Positions 8,898-53,693 of a stretch of 64,000 bases of DNA are shown one piece after another. The notes beneath the pieces are model-generated. The model was not told the origin of the DNA. It made no database searches and saw only the letters and a list, made by a program, of their open reading frames with translations. The stretch comes from Oscillibacter valericigenes (GTDB lineage: Bacteria > Bacillota > Clostridia > Oscillospirales > Oscillospiraceae). The stretch's first letter is position 1; each line of letters opens with the position of its first letter. The stretch is from assembly GCF_021531435.1 (NCBI RefSeq), contig NZ_JAFBIS010000015.1:1-64000 (forward strand), written 5' to 3'. Position numbers and translations under genes: made by a program.

Positions 8898-9128
8898 ATG
8901 ACTTTAGATACTCTGCCTTTAAACCGGGACGCCATCATTACAGCTGTCGGCGGCGAAGGCCCCCTGCGCTGCCGCCTGCTGGACATGGGGCTGATCCCCA
9001 AGACCACTGTCCGGGTGGAAAAGGTTGCCCCGCTGGGAGACCCCATCGAACTGCGGGTCCGGGGCTATTCCCTGTCCCTGCGGAAGGAGGACGCCCGCAG
9101 CATCGAGGTGGAGGTGAAGGACGCATGA
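8898..9128 (+). CDS. feoA: Ferrous iron transport protein A
   Basis: 76-residue SH3-like FeoA protein, which regulates or supports the FeoB ferrous-iron permease on its cytoplasmic side. The block GPLRCRLLDMGLIPKTTVRVEKVAPLGDPIELRVRGY is characteristic, including RLLDMGL and G.P..I.V.GY. AGGAGG lies 9 bases before the ATG. The stop overlaps the feoB ATG (ATGA). Normal length. Confidence 0.95.
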   Translation: MTLDTLPLNRDAIITAVGGEGPLRCRLLDMGLIPKTTVRVEKVAPLGDPIELRVRGYSLSLRKEDARSIEVEVKDA

Positions 9129-11131
9129 TCTTTGCCCTTGCCGGAAACCAGAACTGCGGAAAAACCACCCTGTTCAACCAGCTCACCGGCTCCAACCAGC
9201 ACGTGGGCAACTTCCCCGGCGTCACCGTGGACCAGAAGTCCGGCGCTGTCCGGGGTCAGAAAAACTGCACGGTGGTGGACCTGCCGGGCATCTACTCCAT
9301 CCGGCCCTACACGCCGGAGGAGATCGTCACCCGGGATTTCATCATCGACCAGAAGCCCGACGGCATCATCAACATCGTGGACGCCACCAACATCGAGCGG
9401 AACCTGTACCTGACCCTCCAGCTGATGGAGATGCGCATTCCCATGGTACTGGCTCTGAATATGATGGACGAGGTCACCAGCGGCGGCGGCACCATCGACA
9501 TCAAGGGCATGAGCCGCGCCCTGGGCATCCCCGTCATCCCCATCTCCGCCGTGAAAAACGAGGGCGTGGACGAGCTGATCCGCACCGCTGTGGAAACGGC
9601 CAAGAACAGAGTTTATCCCCAGGTGTACGACTTCTGCGCCCCCGGCCCCATCCACCGCTGCATCCACGCCGTGGTGCATCAGATCGAGGACCACGCCGAA
9701 AAGACCGGCCTGCCTGTCCGCTTTGCCGCCACCAAGCTCATTGAGGGCGATGAGGACATCCGGGCACGGCTGGAGCTGGACCAGAACGAGCTGGAGCTGA
9801 TCGAGCACAGCGTTCAGGAGATGGAGGCCGAGCACGGCATGGACCGCAACGCCGCCCTGGCGGATATGCGGTATGACTTCATCGAGGGGGTCTGCGCCGA
9901 CACGGTGGTCAAGTGCCGGGAATCCAGGGAGCGGACCCGCAGCGAGGCCATCGACCGCATCGTCACCAACAAGTATCTGGCCCTCCCTATTTTCTTCGGC
10001 GTCATGCTGCTGATCTTCTACCTGACCTTCAACGTCATCGGTGCGTTCCTCTCCGACCTGCTGGCGGCGGGCATCGACGCCCTCACCGCCGCTGTGGACG
10101 CCGGGCTGACGGCTTACGGCCTGAACTCCGTGGTACACAGCCTGGTCATCGACGGCGTATTCGCCGGTGTGGGCAGTGTATTGAGCTTTTTACCTATTAT
10201 AGTGGTTCTTTTCTTCTTTTTGTCCATTCTGGAGGACACCGGCTACATGGCCCGCGTGGCCTTCGTCATGGACCAGCTTCTGCGGAAAATGGGTCTGTCC
10301 GGCCGCAGTATCGTCCCCATGCTCATCGGCTTCGGCTGCTCCGTCCCGGCCATCATGTCCACCCGGACGCTGGCCTCGGAGCGGGACCGCCGCATGACCA
10401 TCCTGCTGACGCCCTTTATGAGCTGCTCCGCCAAGATCCCCATCTACGCCGTGTTCACCGCCGCCTTCTTCCCCAAATACGCGGCGCTGGTGATGATCGG
10501 CCTGTACCTGGGCGGTATTCTGGTGGGCATCATCGCCGCTAAGGTGCTGGGCGCCACCGCCTTCCGGGGCAATCCCGTCCCCTTTGTCATGGAGCTGCCA
10601 AACTACCGTTTCCCCTCTGCCAAGAGCGTAGGCCAGCTGTGCTGGGATAAGGCCAAGGACTTCCTGACCCGTGCTTTTACCATCATTTTTGTGGCGACCA
10701 TCGTGGTCTGGTTCCTCCAGACCTTTGACACCCGGCTGAATCTGGTCAGCGACAGCGCCGACAGCCTGCTGGCCACCGTGGGCGCCGTTCTCGCTCCCCT
10801 GTTCAAGCCCCTGGGCTTCGGTGACTGGCGGGTCTCCACCGCCCTCATCACCGGATTTATCGCCAAGGAATCCGTCATCTCCACCCTGGGTATCCTCACC
10901 GGCGCCGGATCCGAGGTCACGGTGGCGGCCCTGGGCACGCTGTTCTCCACCGTCAGCGCCCTGAGCTTCCTGGTGTTCACCCTGCTGTACACCCCCTGCG
11001 TGGCCGCCATCTCCGCGGTGAAACGGGAGCTGGACTCCGGCTGGAAGGCCGCAGGCGTGGCCCTCAGCCAATGCGTAGTCGCCTGGGTGGTGGCCTTCCT
11101 GGTGTATCACGCGGCCCTGCTTGTGGTGTGA
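9125..11131 (+). CDS. feoB: Ferrous iron transport protein B
   Basis: 668 residues. The N-terminal G domain has G1 GNQNCGKTTLFN, G3 DLPGIYS and G4 NMMD. A helical GDI-like spacer follows at about 165-270. The C-terminal membrane domain has about eight segments with the two Gate motifs (residues about 340-470 and 560-650), including GYMARVAFVMD and GFGCSVPAIM. This is the full permease for Fe(II) uptake under anoxic conditions. The G1 motif has Gln-Asn-Cys where many FeoB proteins have Pro-Asn-Val; this is common in Clostridia. The TGA stop is formed by the first bases of structured repeat copy A. Confidence 0.97.
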   Translation: MIFALAGNQNCGKTTLFNQLTGSNQHVGNFPGVTVDQKSGAVRGQKNCTVVDLPGIYSIRPYTPEEIVTRDFIIDQKPDGIINIVDATNIERNLYLTLQLMEMRIPMVLALNMMDEVTSGGGTIDIKGMSRALGIPVIPISAVKNEGVDELIRTAVETAKNRVYPQVYDFCAPGPIHRCIHAVVHQIEDHAEKTGLPVRFAATKLIEGDEDIRARLELDQNELELIEHSVQEMEAEHGMDRNAALADMRYDFIEGVCADTVVKCRESRERTRSEAIDRIVTNKYLALPIFFGVMLLIFYLTFNVIGAFLSDLLAAGIDALTAAVDAGLTAYGLNSVVHSLVIDGVFAGVGSVLSFLPIIVVLFFFLSILEDTGYMARVAFVMDQLLRKMGLSGRSIVPMLIGFGCSVPAIMSTRTLASERDRRMTILLTPFMSCSAKIPIYAVFTAAFFPKYAALVMIGLYLGGILVGIIAAKVLGATAFRGNPVPFVMELPNYRFPSAKSVGQLCWDKAKDFLTRAFTIIFVATIVVWFLQTFDTRLNLVSDSADSLLATVGAVLAPLFKPLGFGDWRVSTALITGFIAKESVISTLGILTGAGSEVTVAALGTLFSTVSALSFLVFTLLYTPCVAAISAVKRELDSGWKAAGVALSQCVVAWVVAFLVYHAALLVV

Positions 11132-11277
11132 TACTGATTTCAAATAAAATGATTTATTTGAAATCCCGCGTGCTTCACACGCTCGTGCCGCACATGCCGT
11201 GCGTCACGCCGTCTCATAAAAACCTGACGTGCTCCGCACTATAAAAAACTTTTTAGCTTTTTATCAGGTTTTAGTAT
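11131..11277 (+). repeat. Structured interspersed repeat, copy A (147 bp)
   Basis: Starts ATACTGATTTCAAATAAA and ends TTTTTATCAGGTTTTAGTAT. Same family and orientation as 23063-23210 and 38243-38412. Predicted folding: hairpin 1 GATTTCAAATAAA with TTTATTTGAAATC (13 bp), hairpin 2 GCGTG/CACGC, hairpin 3 CGTGCCGCAC with GTGCGTCACG, and an outer stem AAAACCTGA with TCAGGTTTT enclosing small stems. This copy sits within the feo operon, starting in the feoB stop codon and ending 1 base before the AGGAGG of the next gene. No transposase ORF is present. Confidence 0.85.
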
Positions 11278-11288
11278 AAGGAGGTCGT

Positions 11289-22995: not shown

Positions 22996-23019
22996 GCCTG
23001 TTCCGGCCATACAGCGCGT

Positions 23020-23056
23020 ATCTGAAAAGCACCGGGACCCGGTATTTTTCAGATAC
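23020..23056 (+). other. Long hairpin between livJ and repeat B
   Basis: TATCTGAAAA..ACCGGG pairs with CCCGGT.TTTTTCAGATA with one small internal irregularity. No T-run follows. It immediately precedes repeat copy B. Confidence 0.55.
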
Positions 23057-23062
23057 GCACTG

Positions 23063-23210
23063 ATACTGATTTCAAATAAAAAGCTTTATTTGAAATCCCG
23101 CATGCTACGCACGCTCGTGCCGCACGTGCCGTGCGTCACGCCGTCTCATAAAAACCTGACGCGCTCCGCGCTATAAAAAGCTTTTCAAGCTTTTTAACAG
23201 GTTTTAGTAT
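23063..23210 (+). repeat. Structured interspersed repeat, copy B (148 bp)
   Basis: Same boundaries as copy A: ATACTGATTTCAAATAAA to TTTAACAGGTTTTAGTAT. Hairpin 1 is identical in its stem; hairpin 2 has an A.C mismatch (GCATG/CACGC), an intermediate between copies A and C; the small inner stem is GCGC/GCGC where A has GTGC/GCAC. It lies between livJ and livH, 51 nt before the livH ATG. Confidence 0.85.
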
Positions 23211-23260
23211 GAAGCGTTTCTCCCGTTCCAAGAAACCTATTTTAAAAGAGGTGTTGTCTT

Positions 23261-36283: not shown

Positions 36284-37465
36284 ATGAACAACTTTACATT
36301 TTATTCCCCCACCTTCTTCGCCTTCGGCGACGGTGAGGAACAAAACACCGGTTCTCTGGTCCGCCGCTTCGGCGGCACGAAGGCCCTGCTGGTCTACGGC
36401 GGCGGCAGTATCAAGCGCAACGGCGCCTATGACGCCGTCACCGCGTCCCTCCGGGAGGCCGGCATTCCCTTCGTCGAGCTTCCCGGCATCCAGGTCAATC
36501 CCCGCAGCGGCAAGGTGTACGAGGGCATCGAGCTCTGCCGCCGGGAGGGTGTGGACTTCCTGCTGGCGGTGGGCGGCGGCAGCGCCATCGACACCGCCAA
36601 GGCCATTGCCGTGGGCGTGCCCTACGACGGGGACTTCTGGGACTTCTTCTCCAAAAAGCCGGCGGAGACGAGCCTGCCGGTGGGCGTGGTGCTGACCCTG
36701 TCCGGTACCGGCAGCGAAGCCTCTGACTCCTCCGTCATCACCCATGAAAACGGCAGCCTCAAGTGGGGCAACCTGAAAAGTGATGTATTCCGCCCCGTCT
36801 TCGCCGTTATGAACCCCCGCTATACCTGCTCCCTCCCCGCCTACCAGACCGCCAGCGGCGCCACGGACATGCTCTCCCACATCTGCGAGCGGTACTTCTC
36901 CAACACCCCCGATGTGGTTCTGACGGACCGGCTGTGCGAGGCCCTGCTGAAAACCATCCTGGAGGCCGCGCCCAAGGCCCTGAAAAACCCCGATGACTAC
37001 GCCGCCCGGGCCGACCTGATGTGGGCGGGGATGCTGGCCCACAACAACTCCTGCGGCGTGGGCCGGGTCCAGGACTGGGCCAGCCACCAGATCGAGCATG
37101 AGCTCTCCGCCTTCTACGACTGCGCCCACGGCGCTGGCCTGGCGGTGGTGATGCCCGCCTGGATGGAGTATGTGATGGACCACGACGTGATGCGCTTCGC
37201 CCGGTTCGCCGTCAACGTGTTCGGCTGCGAGATGGACTTCGCCCACCCCGAAAACACCGCGAAAGAGGGCATCGCCCGCCTGCGGAGCTTCTTCCGCGCC
37301 CTGGGAATGCCCACCACCCTTGCGGAGATCGGTGGCCGGGAGGCCGACATCCCCGCCATGGTGTCCCACCGGGCGGAAAAGCCGGGCGGCTTCCCCTTCG
37401 GCGGCTTCGTGAAGATCGGCCCCGAGGAAATGGAGGCCATCCTCCGGCTGACTGCCCGCGGATAA
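36284..37465 (+). CDS. Iron-containing alcohol dehydrogenase (BDH/YqhD-like)
   Basis: 393 residues of the group III Fe-ADH fold. NAD(P) region GGGSAIDTAKAIAVG at about 96-110, LTLSGTGSEASDSSVIT, and metal ligands from D in TDMLSHICERYF, H in WASHQIEHELS and H in YDCAHGAGLAVVMPAW. Most like butanol/aldehyde reductases using NADPH. AGGAGG precedes the ATG; 33 nt after the hydroxyacid dehydrogenase gene. Confidence 0.92.
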   Translation: MNNFTFYSPTFFAFGDGEEQNTGSLVRRFGGTKALLVYGGGSIKRNGAYDAVTASLREAGIPFVELPGIQVNPRSGKVYEGIELCRREGVDFLLAVGGGSAIDTAKAIAVGVPYDGDFWDFFSKKPAETSLPVGVVLTLSGTGSEASDSSVITHENGSLKWGNLKSDVFRPVFAVMNPRYTCSLPAYQTASGATDMLSHICERYFSNTPDVVLTDRLCEALLKTILEAAPKALKNPDDYAARADLMWAGMLAHNNSCGVGRVQDWASHQIEHELSAFYDCAHGAGLAVVMPAWMEYVMDHDVMRFARFAVNVFGCEMDFAHPENTAKEGIARLRSFFRALGMPTTLAEIGGREADIPAMVSHRAEKPGGFPFGGFVKIGPEEMEAILRLTARG

Positions 37466-37496
37466 CTTTATGCTTGACAGAGAGAAGGCGCAGCCG

Positions 37497-38243
37497 ATGG
37501 AGCGCAAGGCCCTGAATGGCAATCAGCTGAAGGTCATCGCCATGGCCGCCATGACCATCGACCATGTCACCTGCGTCCTGTTCCCCGGCTATCCGAAGGT
37601 CTGGTGGATCCTGCTGCTGCACATCATCGGCAGGATGGCGGCGCCCATCTTCTGGTTCTTCGTAGCGGAGGGATACTACTACACCCATGACCGGAAACAA
37701 TACGCCGGCAGGCTGCTGGTCTTTGCCCTCATCAGCCACTTCGCCTATAACTTTGCCTTCGGCATCCCCTTCATCCCCTTCCGGACCTCCGTGTTCAACC
37801 AGACCAGCGTGCTCTGGCCCCTGTTCTGGGGCGTGGTGGCGCTGTCCGTTGCCGACAGCGAACGGCTGAAACAGTGGCAGAAATTCCTGGCGGTCATCGC
37901 CATCACCGTCGTCACCTTCTGCGCGGACTGGAGCTGCATCGCGGTGCTGGCAATTCTGGAAATTGGGCAGCACCGGGGGAACTTCAGGCGGCAGATGACG
38001 GGCATGATGCGCTGGGTGGCGCTGTACGCCGCCGTGTACGTCATCTTCATCGACCCGGTCTACGGCGTTCTCCAGTTCTTCACCGCCCTCACCATCCCCC
38101 TGCTGGGGCGGTACAACGGCCAGCGGGGGAGCTGGAAGGGCATGAAATGGCTGTTTTATGTCTACTATCCCCTCCACCTGTTCCTCTGCGGCCTCATCCG
38201 CGTCGCCCTCCACGGCAACATCGGCGTGATGATCGGCGGCTGA
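37497..38243 (+). CDS. TraX-like acyltransferase-family membrane protein
   Basis: 248 residues from the ATG at 37497, which has GAGAAGG upstream; an earlier ATG at 37470 has none. Begins ERKALNGNQLKVIAMAAMTIDHVTCVLFPGY, the TraX signature, with about eight membrane segments and FYVYYPLHLFLCGLIRVALHGN near the end. TraX acetylates F-pilin in plasmids, but chromosomal Firmicute members probably modify cell-surface components. Stop TGA is the first three bases of repeat copy C. Confidence 0.85.
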   Translation: MERKALNGNQLKVIAMAAMTIDHVTCVLFPGYPKVWWILLLHIIGRMAAPIFWFFVAEGYYYTHDRKQYAGRLLVFALISHFAYNFAFGIPFIPFRTSVFNQTSVLWPLFWGVVALSVADSERLKQWQKFLAVIAITVVTFCADWSCIAVLAILEIGQHRGNFRRQMTGMMRWVALYAAVYVIFIDPVYGVLQFFTALTIPLLGRYNGQRGSWKGMKWLFYVYYPLHLFLCGLIRVALHGNIGVMIGG

Positions 38244-38412
38244 TACTGATCTCAAATAAAATGCTTTATTTGAGATCCCGCATGCTGCGCATGCTCGTGC
38301 CGCACGTACCGTGCGTCACGCCGTCTCATAAAAACCTGACGCGCGACCCGCTATAAAAAGCCGCTTTTTATAAGCCGCTTTTTATAAGCCGCTTTTTATC
38401 AGGTTTTAGTAT
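38243..38412 (+). repeat. Structured interspersed repeat, copy C (170 bp)
   Basis: Boundaries as in copies A and B. Hairpin 1 reads GATCTCAAATAAA..TTTATTTGAGATC, a T-A to C-G compensatory exchange against A and B. Hairpin 2 is GCATG/CATGC. Extra length comes from a triplicated 16-bp unit (AAGCCGCTTTTTATaa) within the inner loop, giving an AT-rich tandem run before TCAGGTTTTAGTAT. Starts in the TraX-like stop codon. Confidence 0.85.
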
Positions 38413-38427
38413 GAAAAACGCAAAAAA

Positions 38428-51107: not shown

Positions 51108-51166
51108 CTTAGCAGTCAGAGTTTTCTTCCAAAATAACCAATATATTGTCTTAAAAGTCTTTTATT

Positions 51167-52295
51167 ATGTTCTATTATCTCCGCCGGGAGGCAGGGTTTT
51201 ACAGGCGGCTGGTCCGTCTGGCCCTGCCGCTGGTTTTGCAGAACCTCATCACGACCTCCCTGGGCTTTGTGGACACCTTCATGGTGGGGCTGCTGGGGCA
51301 GGACGAGCTGTCCGCCGTCACCGCCGCCAACACCCCGGTCTTTCTGGTGCAGATCATCATTCTGGGCCTCATCAGCGGCCTGACCGTTCTGGTGAGCCAA
51401 TACTGGGGCAAGGGCGATGTGGAGGCTATCAACCGCTGCATGGGCGCGGCGCTGTACGCCGGGCTGTCCATCTCCGGGGCGGTGGCGCTGGCGCTGCTGC
51501 TGTTCCCAAACGGCGTCATGGCTCTGGTCACCGACAACGCCCGGCTGGTGGAGCTGGGGGCGCCGTACCTGCGCATCGTGGGCGTCAGCTACGTGTTCAA
51601 CGCCGCCAGCTCCGTGTACGTCGGGATGCAGCGCAGCACGGAAAAGCCCGTCATGGGCATGGCCATCTTCGCCGTGTCCATGCTGCTGAACACCCTTTTG
51701 AACTACATCCTGATTTTCGGAAAGCTGGGCGCGCCCGCCCTGGGTATCACCGGGGCGGCCAGTGGCTACATTGGCCTCCCGCATCGTGGAGTTCCTCATT
51801 ACTTTGGTGTGCGCCCTGTGCAGCCGCCACGTGCCCCTGCTGCCCGCCGCCATCCTGCGGCCCGGCGGCGCCATCTGGCGGGATTTTGCCAAATACTCCG
51901 CTCCCGTTCTGGTGAACGAGACGCTGTGGGGCCTGGGCGTCAGCGTGATGACCGCCATCATGGGCCACATGGCCATCAGCACCGAGATGCTGGCGGCCTA
52001 CGCCGTCATGGGCGTGGTGCTCATCTGTATGATGCCCACAAAGGCCATGGACATCACCAATATCACCGGCCTCCTCCGGGCCGGAGGCGACGCCCGGACG
52101 GCCTCCCTTATCGACCTCTCCTGCCAGTGGATCATCGCCGTGCCCCTGTCCTTTGTCACCGCGCTGGTGCTGCATGCCCCGGCGGCGGTGGTGTGCTTCG
52201 CCATTCAGTCTGAAAATTTCTGCAAAGCGCCCTGGTGCGTCCTCCGGCTGCGGAGCCGGAAGTGGATCCACGACGTCACCCGGGGCAGTATATAA
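51167..52295 (+). pseudogene. Decayed MATE family efflux gene
   Basis: The first part (51167-51760) encodes the N-terminal half of a MATE protein: YYLRREAGFYRRLVRLALPLVLQNLITTSLGFVDTFMVG, VSQYWGKGD. An extra base at 51761 shifts the frame; the remainder continues from a GTG at 51762 as ATLASRIVEFLITLVCALCSR... to 52295. Compared with the intact paralogue at 52.3-53.7 kb, a stretch of about 78 residues between LAAYAVMG and ITGLLRAGG is also gone. No good ribosome site precedes the first ATG. This is a tandem duplicate in decay. Confidence 0.88.
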
Positions 52296-52304
52296 GGAGT
52301 GCTT

Positions 52305-53693
52305 ATGCTGCGCTGTCTTCGCCGGGAACCCGGCTTTTACAAGCGGCTGTGGATGCTGTCCCTGCCGGTCATTCTGCAAAACCTCATCACCTTCTCCCTG
52401 GGGCTCATCGACACCTTCATGGTCAGTCAGCTGGGCAACGAGGAGATGGCCGCCGTGTCCTCCGCCAACGTGCCGGTGTTTCTGCTCATCAGCATCGTGT
52501 TCGGCTTCCAGAGCGGGCTGGGCATTCTGGTGAGCCAATACTGGGGCAAGGGCGACCTGAAGAACATCAACCGCGCCCTGGGCGTGGCCTGCTTCCTGGG
52601 GGCCGGGGTCACCGCCGTGCTGGCGGTGGTGCTCGCCCTGTTCCCCGTGCAGGTGATGGACCTGCTGTCCAACCGCCACGACCTGAGCCTGCTGGGAGCG
52701 CCGTACCTCCAGGTCATCGGCTTCTCCTATGTGTTCAACATGCTCTCCTCCCTCTACGCCAGCGCCCAGCGCAGCGTGGAAAACTCCACCTTCGGCATGA
52801 AGCTGTTCGGCTTCTCCACGGTTCTGAACACCGCTCTGAACTATCTGCTCATTTTCGGCCACGGCGGATTCCCGGCCCTGGGCGTCCGGGGCGCGGCAGT
52901 CGCTACGCTGCTGGCCCGGATGAGCGAGTTCCTCATCTGCGTGGTCTGCGCCGTCCGCAGCAAAAACATTCCGCTGGACCTGGGCTGCTTCCTGCGGCCC
53001 GGCACGGAGATGGTGGGCCGGTTTTTGAAATACGCCTCCCCGGTGGTGCTGAACGAGACCGCCTGGGGCCTGGGCAACTCCCTGCTGACCGTCATTCTGG
53101 GCTACACCGACAACTCCGTGGAAATGCTGGCGGCCAACGCCGTCATGGGCAACCTGAACCGATTGTTCTTAGTGGTGTGCTTCGGCCTGGGCGCCGCCAC
53201 GGCGGTCATCGTGGGCAAGGCCATCGGCGAGGGAAAGACAAAGGACGAGGTCCTGTCCCTGAGCCAGGCGCTGCTGTGGTTTGCGGTGCTGGTGGGCGGC
53301 GCCGTGGGGCTGGCGGCCCTGGTGCTGGTGCCGACCTTGTTCGTGCCGGTCATCTTCCCCATGTTCAAGCTGTTCGGGGAGTCTTCCGCCATCGCCGCGG
53401 CCATGGCGGTGGCGGGCTTCGCCACGATTCCCCTCCACGCCTACGCCATCTCCGCCGTCACCGGCGTGCTGCGGGCGGGAGGCGACGTGGCCTTCTCCAC
53501 CGCGCTAGACCTGGGACCCCAGTGGCTGCTGTGCCTGCCGCTGACGGCCCTGTGCGCCCTGGTGCTGAAAACCGGGGCATGGCCCATCGCCATCGCCATT
53601 CAGATCGAGTGCGTGGTCAAGTCCCCGCTGTGCGCCTGGCGCATCGGCGGCGGCAAGTGGATCCACGATGTGACAAGGGGGCGTGAGGTATGA
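52305..53693 (+). CDS. MATE family efflux protein, intact paralogue
   Basis: 462 residues from the ATG at 52305 with AAGGAG upstream. About twelve membrane segments, with RLWMLSLPVILQNLITFSLGLIDTFMVSQLG, ILVSQYWGKGD in the first half and LNETAWGLGNSLLTVILGY, VLRAGGDVAFSTA in the second. Extrudes drugs or metabolites. It is the tandem partner of the pseudogene upstream. Stop overlaps the next ATG (ATGA). Confidence 0.92.
   Translation: MLRCLRREPGFYKRLWMLSLPVILQNLITFSLGLIDTFMVSQLGNEEMAAVSSANVPVFLLISIVFGFQSGLGILVSQYWGKGDLKNINRALGVACFLGAGVTAVLAVVLALFPVQVMDLLSNRHDLSLLGAPYLQVIGFSYVFNMLSSLYASAQRSVENSTFGMKLFGFSTVLNTALNYLLIFGHGGFPALGVRGAAVATLLARMSEFLICVVCAVRSKNIPLDLGCFLRPGTEMVGRFLKYASPVVLNETAWGLGNSLLTVILGYTDNSVEMLAANAVMGNLNRLFLVVCFGLGAATAVIVGKAIGEGKTKDEVLSLSQALLWFAVLVGGAVGLAALVLVPTLFVPVIFPMFKLFGESSAIAAAMAVAGFATIPLHAYAISAVTGVLRAGGDVAFSTALDLGPQWLLCLPLTALCALVLKTGAWPIAIAIQIECVVKSPLCAWRIGGGKWIHDVTRGREV

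Follow-up and report, generated by a model that had tools for sequence, protein, structure and literature searches.

What is a short, gene-free sequence with several hairpins doing in three dispersed copies of one genome, and what keeps its shape: mobility, a structured RNA or a bound DNA site? We addressed this question for a repeat in a stretch of 64,000 nucleotides (nt) of Oscillibacter valericigenes (assembly GCF_021531435.1, contig NZ_JAFBIS010000015.1, positions 1 to 64,000), hereafter the window, where copy A lies at the end of feoB and copies B and C further downstream. Our favoured explanation, to which we assign a probability of about 0.5, is that the repeat resembles a miniature inverted-repeat transposable element (MITE) whose bottom-strand fold is under selection as folded DNA that would be read by a transposase or helper protein acting in trans.

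A repeat finder placed the copies in one family (+ strand starts 11129, 23061 and 38241), and their alignment gave boundaries common to all three. The repeat with three copies of common boundaries and orientation that the first-pass annotation had described is therefore real; its boundaries were similar to ours, but the exact ends needed correction, as the element proper runs from TACT to AGTA and is flanked by TNA (TGA/TAA in A, TGA/TGA in B and in C). None of 29 relative loci, those returned as loci from 56 genomes with some match, has an insert at the copy A site: 28 run directly from the feoB stop to the leader of the next gene, and in L205 unrelated sequence follows the feoB stop. The copy C site is empty in three relatives (L367, L368 and L369), which show a single TGA and then the same downstream sequence; relative to them, the source genome reads TGA-TACT...AGTA-TGA, an exact 3-bp duplication. 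Among 86 copies with recognisable ends (distinct rows of alignments A2 and A3 in which neither end departed from the expected form), the same N was found in both TNA flanks in 68, where about 32 were expected from base counts. From the empty sites and the flank agreement, we therefore defined the element as TACT...AGTA with TNA duplications. The ends had been considered only weakly inverted, over 7 nt, which did not hold: they are imperfect inverted repeats of about 20 nt, composed of TACT, a subfamily-specific stretch and A-rich bases. In 58 representatives of 126 copies, the middles of these repeats agreed better within a copy (mean score 5.02) than between copies (4.07), a difference that 0 of 5000 permutations reached. 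Terminal inverted repeats, duplications with empty sites, and a short (about 140–220 bp), gene-free sequence in many dispersed copies are the features by which MITEs are recognised, and the earlier proposal of a MITE-like element gains support from the mobility of the element, the empty sites for A and C and the TNA duplications.

We then considered the insertion target in 117 copies, restricted to exact duplications and distinct flanks. T was found at −2 in 67 and C at −1 in 65 of them, and the N of TNA was G in 69, A in 29, C in 15 and T in 4. As judged from these flanks, the target is polar, TC|TGA, and many copies therefore lie on stop codons. Gene context was assessed for 145 copies with flanks of at least 600 nt and distinct upstream flanks, with genes called by a simple codon-score script and not by a gene finder. 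The left TNA was the stop of a same-strand gene in 45 copies and the right TNA that of an opposite-strand gene in 8; 8 copies lay inside a gene, and the left neighbour was on the top (+) strand in 96. This bias towards the sense orientation can follow from the polar TGA motif. Sequence comparison by itself shows that the element inserts, duplicates its target, prefers certain sites and ends in repeats.

The shape of the element is kept together with its ends. In its usual order it comprises H1 (a long hairpin with the terminal repeat), H2, H3, a CGTCTCATAA-like core that is unpaired, P4, which encloses two smaller hairpins (P4a and P4b), and AGTA, as examined in copies from 21 genera besides the source genus. 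Exceptions are a subfamily of about 142 bp, also present in the source genome, in which a single hairpin replaces H2 and H3; copies such as L348, L359 and L360, which are without left hairpins; and some copies of genome G073, which have an extra insert. Copies A and B, the two that were tested, folded better than shuffled sequences (z = −6.0 and −7.0; 0 of 200 shuffles as good). The covariation reported by the first-pass annotation was present when we re-read the sequences: T-A in hairpin 1 of A and B becomes C-G in C; hairpin 2 is GCGTG/CACGC in A and GCATG/CATGC in C, B having the intermediate A.C; and in the small inner stem A has GTGC/GCAC and B GCGC/GCGC. This last stem is partly broken in copy C (GCGCGACCCGC). 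When 23 copies were aligned with MAFFT, both partners had changed in 18 of the 30 consensus pairs and 96.5% of cells were paired, compared with 83.8% in shuffled alignments and 34–48% when partners were slid; the covariation score was 0.424 against 0.183 for shuffled alignments, and 0 of 500 shuffles reached it. The claim that selection keeps the fold is thus upheld by the double-changed pairs and the paired fraction. Between subfamilies the stem sequences are almost wholly exchanged and complementarity is kept. The MAFFT alignment A2 misaligns H2 and H3 between subfamilies, and pair counts there therefore miss changes in those stems. We also called pair changes within clusters of 137 copies (120–230 nt, without N, core on the top strand), of which only five clusters had at least three members; these five gave 5272 unchanged cells, 376 double Watson-Crick changes, 79 G.T, 142 A.C, 203 other mismatches and 137 gaps.

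Which strand folds can be judged from the imperfections that the hairpins tolerate. An alignment-free count of 404 distinct hairpins from 173 copies, selected by the same length, N and core rules and also used for triloops and energies, gave on the top strand 56 C.T against 3 G.A mismatches, 17 G.T against 38 A.C (p = 0.006), and 79 TNC against 14 GNA triloops. The complement of this signature is a bottom strand with G.A and G.T mismatches and GNA triloops. When each context was counted once, the 137 copies of alignments A2–A4 (mostly from the source genus, with some from other genera) gave C.T 22 against G.A 3 and TNC 54 against GNA 13. The corresponding numbers for 38 copies from other genera, two of them common to both sets, were C.T 12 against G.A 0, G.T 0 against A.C 7, and TNC 31 against GNA 2. 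A mismatch that recurs in H3, in a stem whose other pairs vary, accounts for much of the C.T excess. The middle base of the triloops also varies (TTC 117, TGC 47, TAC 25, TCC 24), and the outer two are kept in several hairpins. By predicted energy, the bottom strand was the more stable one in 115 copies as RNA and in 120 as DNA, out of 173. GNRA tetraloops are usual in RNA; among 118 tetraloops here, GNRA occurred twice on the bottom and twice on the top strand, and UNCG 0 times on the bottom strand, a profile that, from the loop sequences, is not RNA-like. GNA triloops, in turn, reportedly give extraordinarily stable DNA minihairpins, for which PMC11101458 and PMC7432603 cite or mention the work of Yoshizawa (1997) and Hirao (1994).

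In view of the mismatch and triloop asymmetries, selection appears to act on the bottom strand in its folded form and not on an RNA of the + strand, and we favour folding as DNA rather than as RNA. An RNA read from the + strand, as the first-pass annotation had considered, found no support: one-sided stem transitions from G-C pairs were 24 G.T against 42 A.C (p = 0.036), and as G.T does not exceed A.C a folded + strand RNA is not indicated; the C.T mismatches likewise disfavour the top-strand RNA as the selected form, and we found no + strand promoter-like site around A, B or C.

We therefore prefer a MITE-like element with a selected bottom-strand fold, which would work as follows. A transposase supplied in trans would recognise both ends (TACT, the subfamily-specific bases and the A-rich bases) and insert the element, with a preference for one orientation, at sites resembling TC|TGA, giving the 3-bp TNA duplication. 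Copies at gene ends would be tolerated in large number because TGA and TAA are stops and the duplication restores the stop codon. Selection would keep the multi-hairpin shape of the bottom strand, folded as DNA in single-stranded or extruded form and read by the transposase or a helper protein, in parallel to REP (repetitive extragenic palindrome) and attC hairpins, which their enzymes recognise. The substrate of the transposase is probably the bottom strand in its folded form. A bolder version, a transposon class found across the family that moves through folded bottom-strand single-stranded DNA (ssDNA) yet leaves a 3-bp duplication at a polar TC|TGA site, we regard as unlikely. If it were true, the transposase chemistry would join recognition of folded ssDNA with staggered cutting of the target, outside the known groups. 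The family in any case allows one to ask whether a transposase that reads folded DNA can also produce target duplications, and it supplies a large natural set of compensatory mutations in a folded nucleic acid whose strand is known.

Several observations speak against this preferred explanation. Minimal palindromes of about 50 bp and one internally deleted copy also lie between TNA duplications, so the inner hairpins may be dispensable for movement. No transposase bracketed by element ends, as an autonomous copy would be, was found in 28 loci with DDE transposase genes from up to 12 genomes, and folded-ssDNA (Y1) transposases are not known to leave a target duplication. For one of the five covariation measures (further pair types, 25), each of the 500 shuffles scored at least as high. 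In the five clusters the mismatched cells are as numerous as the double Watson-Crick changes, with the gaps in addition, and the counts are not independent because copies share ancestry. As to the strand, distinct one-sided stem transitions on the + strand differed weakly (G.T 56, A.C 73, p = 0.16), as did G.T and A.C in A2–A4 with each context counted once (17 and 29, p = 0.10); inheritance of a single mismatch, which in 25 of the listed cases has GAC/GGC as its immediate bottom-strand neighbours, explains part of the C.T excess; and the asymmetry test covers hairpins of the element only. Finally, there was no bias in GC skew, and hence none for a replication strand (87 copies on the G-rich strand among 165 with enough flank), and we rejected targeting of a replication strand.

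The best-surviving alternative, although unlikely, is that the element carries a small RNA encoded by the bottom strand, whose folding (G.U, G.A and GNA loops) causes the asymmetries, with mobility only spreading the RNA. All three asymmetries do indicate the bottom strand, as does the RNA energy prediction, and copy A has one promoter-like site on the minus strand (11267-11238). This site would, however, start the RNA inside P4 and omit part of the fold, and no promoter-like site was found in or near B and C on either strand. The tetraloops are no better suited to this explanation, GNRA not being enriched and UNCG absent on the bottom strand, and the bottom strand is mostly antisense to the left gene. 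A minus-strand terminator-like site inside copy B (23171-23159) would lie near the start of such an RNA. It is the single such site within the copies, none was found on the + strand within A, B or C, and a terminator function for the element was discarded. A scan of the window with 4227 Rfam covariance models gave no match at the gathering score, and a permissive scan of six loci gave none over an element, one match touching the end of a copy in L107; these scans thus found no known RNA family. The minus strand of L088 (5325-5569) carries a T-box leader above the Rfam gathering score.

An ordinary MITE of an IS5-type transposase is less likely still; here the inner structure would be a by-product of the inverted repeats, or a 3′ structure or terminator of top-strand mRNA. 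The IS1031 group of IS5 typically makes a 3-bp TNA duplication, which our element also shows, and copies lie mostly downstream of a same-strand gene, but this orientation bias can follow from the polar target, the mismatch types disfavour a top-strand structure, and copies A, B and C lack a + strand terminator-like site. The element ends also differ from those of the IS1031 group, which are G-rich, as they begin with TACT. We detected DDE_Tnp_1 in six of nine searched genomes (18 loci) and DDE_Tnp_1_2 in six of 12 (10 loci, some of them the same genes); several of these loci are cut at contig ends, and many assemblies are incomplete. When the 28 loci were scanned for TACT...AGTA ends, only one was bracketed (L235/L072), and this was an IS5-family insertion sequence (IS) nested in an element: in L072 (806-2075) the H1 loop is interrupted by an IS5-like IS with a 325-aa open reading frame (ORF) and ATA on either side. 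Scanning the DDE loci for any inverted repeats (best four per locus) revealed no bracketing partner besides this nested IS; a weak pair (12 of 22) at one place recorded twice (L243 and L322) was taken as chance. Neither domain was matched in the copy-rich genomes G073 and G101. Searches for the end pattern in four and in 86 genomes returned copies, derivatives and a second related family, with no gene-bearing element among the places listed. A link to a known IS end, which the first-pass annotation had named as evidence that would tell against its reading, was thus not found in the DDE loci or by the end patterns.

We also considered Y1 transposases. They occurred in 36 of 86 genomes, in 19 of 27 with the element against 17 of 59 others (hand tally, Fisher p = 0.0004), but in neither of the copy-rich genomes G006 and G101, which tells against them as the partner. 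The sole Y1 gene read beside a copy (L397) appeared by eye to belong to an ordinary IS200. Derivation from IS200/IS605 is not indicated, as copy C has an exact 3-bp duplication and such elements are not known to leave one.

It is very unlikely that the hairpins are kept perfect without selection, through template switching during replication that repairs imperfect palindromes and makes compensatory changes in one step. Such a process would fit the exchange of whole stems as blocks and the excess of double Watson-Crick cells over the 221 G.T and A.C intermediates, although all mismatches together (424) outnumber those cells. It does not account for the recurrence of a particular mismatch, the C.T excess over G.A or TNC loops with a variable middle, and it leaves the similar hairpin order and unpaired core across many genera unexplained. 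A retroposon, made when RNA of the bottom strand is copied by reverse transcription at a nick in the target in the manner of a short interspersed nuclear element, is highly improbable: a polar target, a short duplication and a structured, gene-free unit of about 150 nt would suit it, but in many copies both ends are complete and their terminal repeats match, left truncation was noticed in few, and no tail was seen.

Examples of prokaryotic MITEs are BOX, RUP, ERIC and Correia. Prokaryotic MITEs, as reviewed in PMC10969869, resemble our element in being short and gene-free, with inverted ends, target duplications, many intergenic copies and stable stem-loops; they differ in that here a multi-branch fold with a conserved unpaired core is kept by compensatory change across many genera, the fold is strand-specific, the target is polar and no partner IS was found. 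REP hairpins are bound and cut strand-specifically as folded ssDNA by TnpA-REP (RAYT), and conserved stem mismatches in Escherichia coli REPs matter for this enzyme (PMC8266576). The likeness to REP and REPIN sequences lies in palindromes read strand-specifically as folded ssDNA; REPs, however, have GTAG and form single hairpins or pairs, whereas here there are four or five hairpins and TNA duplications, and no conserved GTAG at a hairpin foot was seen by eye in the 3-copy and 23-copy alignments. In integrons only the bottom strand of attC is recombined, and its sequence is poorly conserved, with structural determinants proposed (PMC2727003); unlike attC sites, our element shows dispersed insertions with target duplication, and no gene cassettes were seen.

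A covariance model, R1, built from 23 copies, matched the source genome 13 times (10 of these 13 are listed), and within the genus it matched 27 of 86 genomes, with 35 matches in G091. In the GTDB family, 53 of 400 sampled genomes, in 26 of 106 sampled genera, matched at E <= 1e-4. The element, although gene-free, keeps an elaborate shape while exchanging most of its sequence. In a sample of the order, 7 of 394 genomes matched at E <= 1e-5, six of them of the same family and one a weak match outside it (G818). Searches over more than 40 genomes scored only the best candidates under strict filters, which makes absences soft. Scanning named genomes with a pattern gave 95 stretches, of which the 80 listed carry the titles Oscillibacter, Dysosmobacter, Oscillospiraceae, Clostridia(les) and Butyricicoccus. 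Copy A had no match in plasmid or phage collections, and we rejected cargo of plasmids or phages. Three copies lie on IMG/VR contigs from one metagenome (L158 and L159; L310 belongs to the related family), and the other viral end-pattern matches looked by eye like chance. We recognised no published description among the papers listed from the open-licence PMC literature, and with "undescribed" limited to that literature and Rfam, this is apparently a large, undescribed family of mobile elements. It is a source of insertion variation, often precisely at stop codons and here within the feoB operon.

Coordinates of the three copies in the window and of the parts of copy A.
Feature	Position	Strand	Remarks
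feoB gene	9125-11131		stop codon is the left TGA of copy A
Copy A, left target duplication	11129..11131	+	TGA, also the feoB stop codon
Copy A, whole element	11132..11276	+	TACT...AGTA; + is the top strand, the fold-selected strand is apparently its complement
Copy A, hairpin H1	11136..11165	+	contains the left terminal repeat; fold and covariation
Copy A, hairpin H2	11168..11182	+	fold
Copy A, hairpin H3	11184..11208	+	one mismatch that recurs, C.T in the top and G.A in the bottom strand; fold
Copy A, core	11210..11219	+	CGTCTCATAA, largely unpaired, strongly conserved across the family
Copy A, branched hairpin P4, outer stem	11219..11272	+	contains the right terminal repeat; fold and covariation
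Copy A, inner hairpins of P4	P4a 11229-11239; P4b about 11242-11263	+	
Copy A, right target duplication	11277..11279	+	TAA
Copy B	23061..23212	+	TGA, element 23064-23209, TGA
Copy C	38241..38414	+	TGA, element 38244-38411, TGA; P4b expanded by tandem units

Besides feoB, copy A is bordered on its downstream side by a small ORF that has a sequence resembling a ribosome-binding site. Copy B is flanked by genes for a periplasmic binding protein and a branched-chain amino acid permease, and immediately 5′ of this copy (23016-23058) is a strong palindrome, GCGTATCTGAAAA...TTTTTCAGATACGC, whose centre scores as a terminator. Copy C is directly 3′ of a TraX-family gene, its left TGA being the stop codon. 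The extra length of copy C is a tandem expansion within its last hairpin, the P4b unit being present three times in tandem (38350-38402), which suggests slippage at the hairpin. No ORF of at least 100 aa lies inside A, B or C in a program-made list, in which three ORFs, called mechanically, extend over one end of A or C (10190-11143 on the − strand, 37212-38255 on the − strand and 37874-38356 on the + strand). Elsewhere in the window, diverged direct repeats about 1.14 kb apart (51165-52588 and 51891-53150) are possibly tandem paralogous genes.

An extra two-hairpin insert (CTGGGCAACCGTTGGCGGC...CCCCTTGCGGGG or similar) was seen inside P4 in L088 (1197-1403), L066, L063, L110, L137 and L138 (G073), and L074. 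In L207 (around 1196-1510) the core is split by another small inverted-repeat element with GAGCCTGTTTAAAATCTC ends, flanked by TCA. The second, related family has similar TNA|TAC...GTA|TNA ends, two lobes and a conserved ...GTATTGACAACATTCTTG... centre, without the CGTCTCATAA core; it was found in L212 (from 1499), L234, L290-L295, L299-L301, L310 and G000:C66 (near 84270), and seven of 10 extracted copies had the same N in both flanks. Genome G091 is a 1.1-Mb, 52% complete assembly with 145 end-pattern matches. It has near-identical copies, several of its contigs end inside copies (L284-L287), and a short perfect palindrome with TNA duplications lies in L283 (862-908); the copies look like a recent burst.

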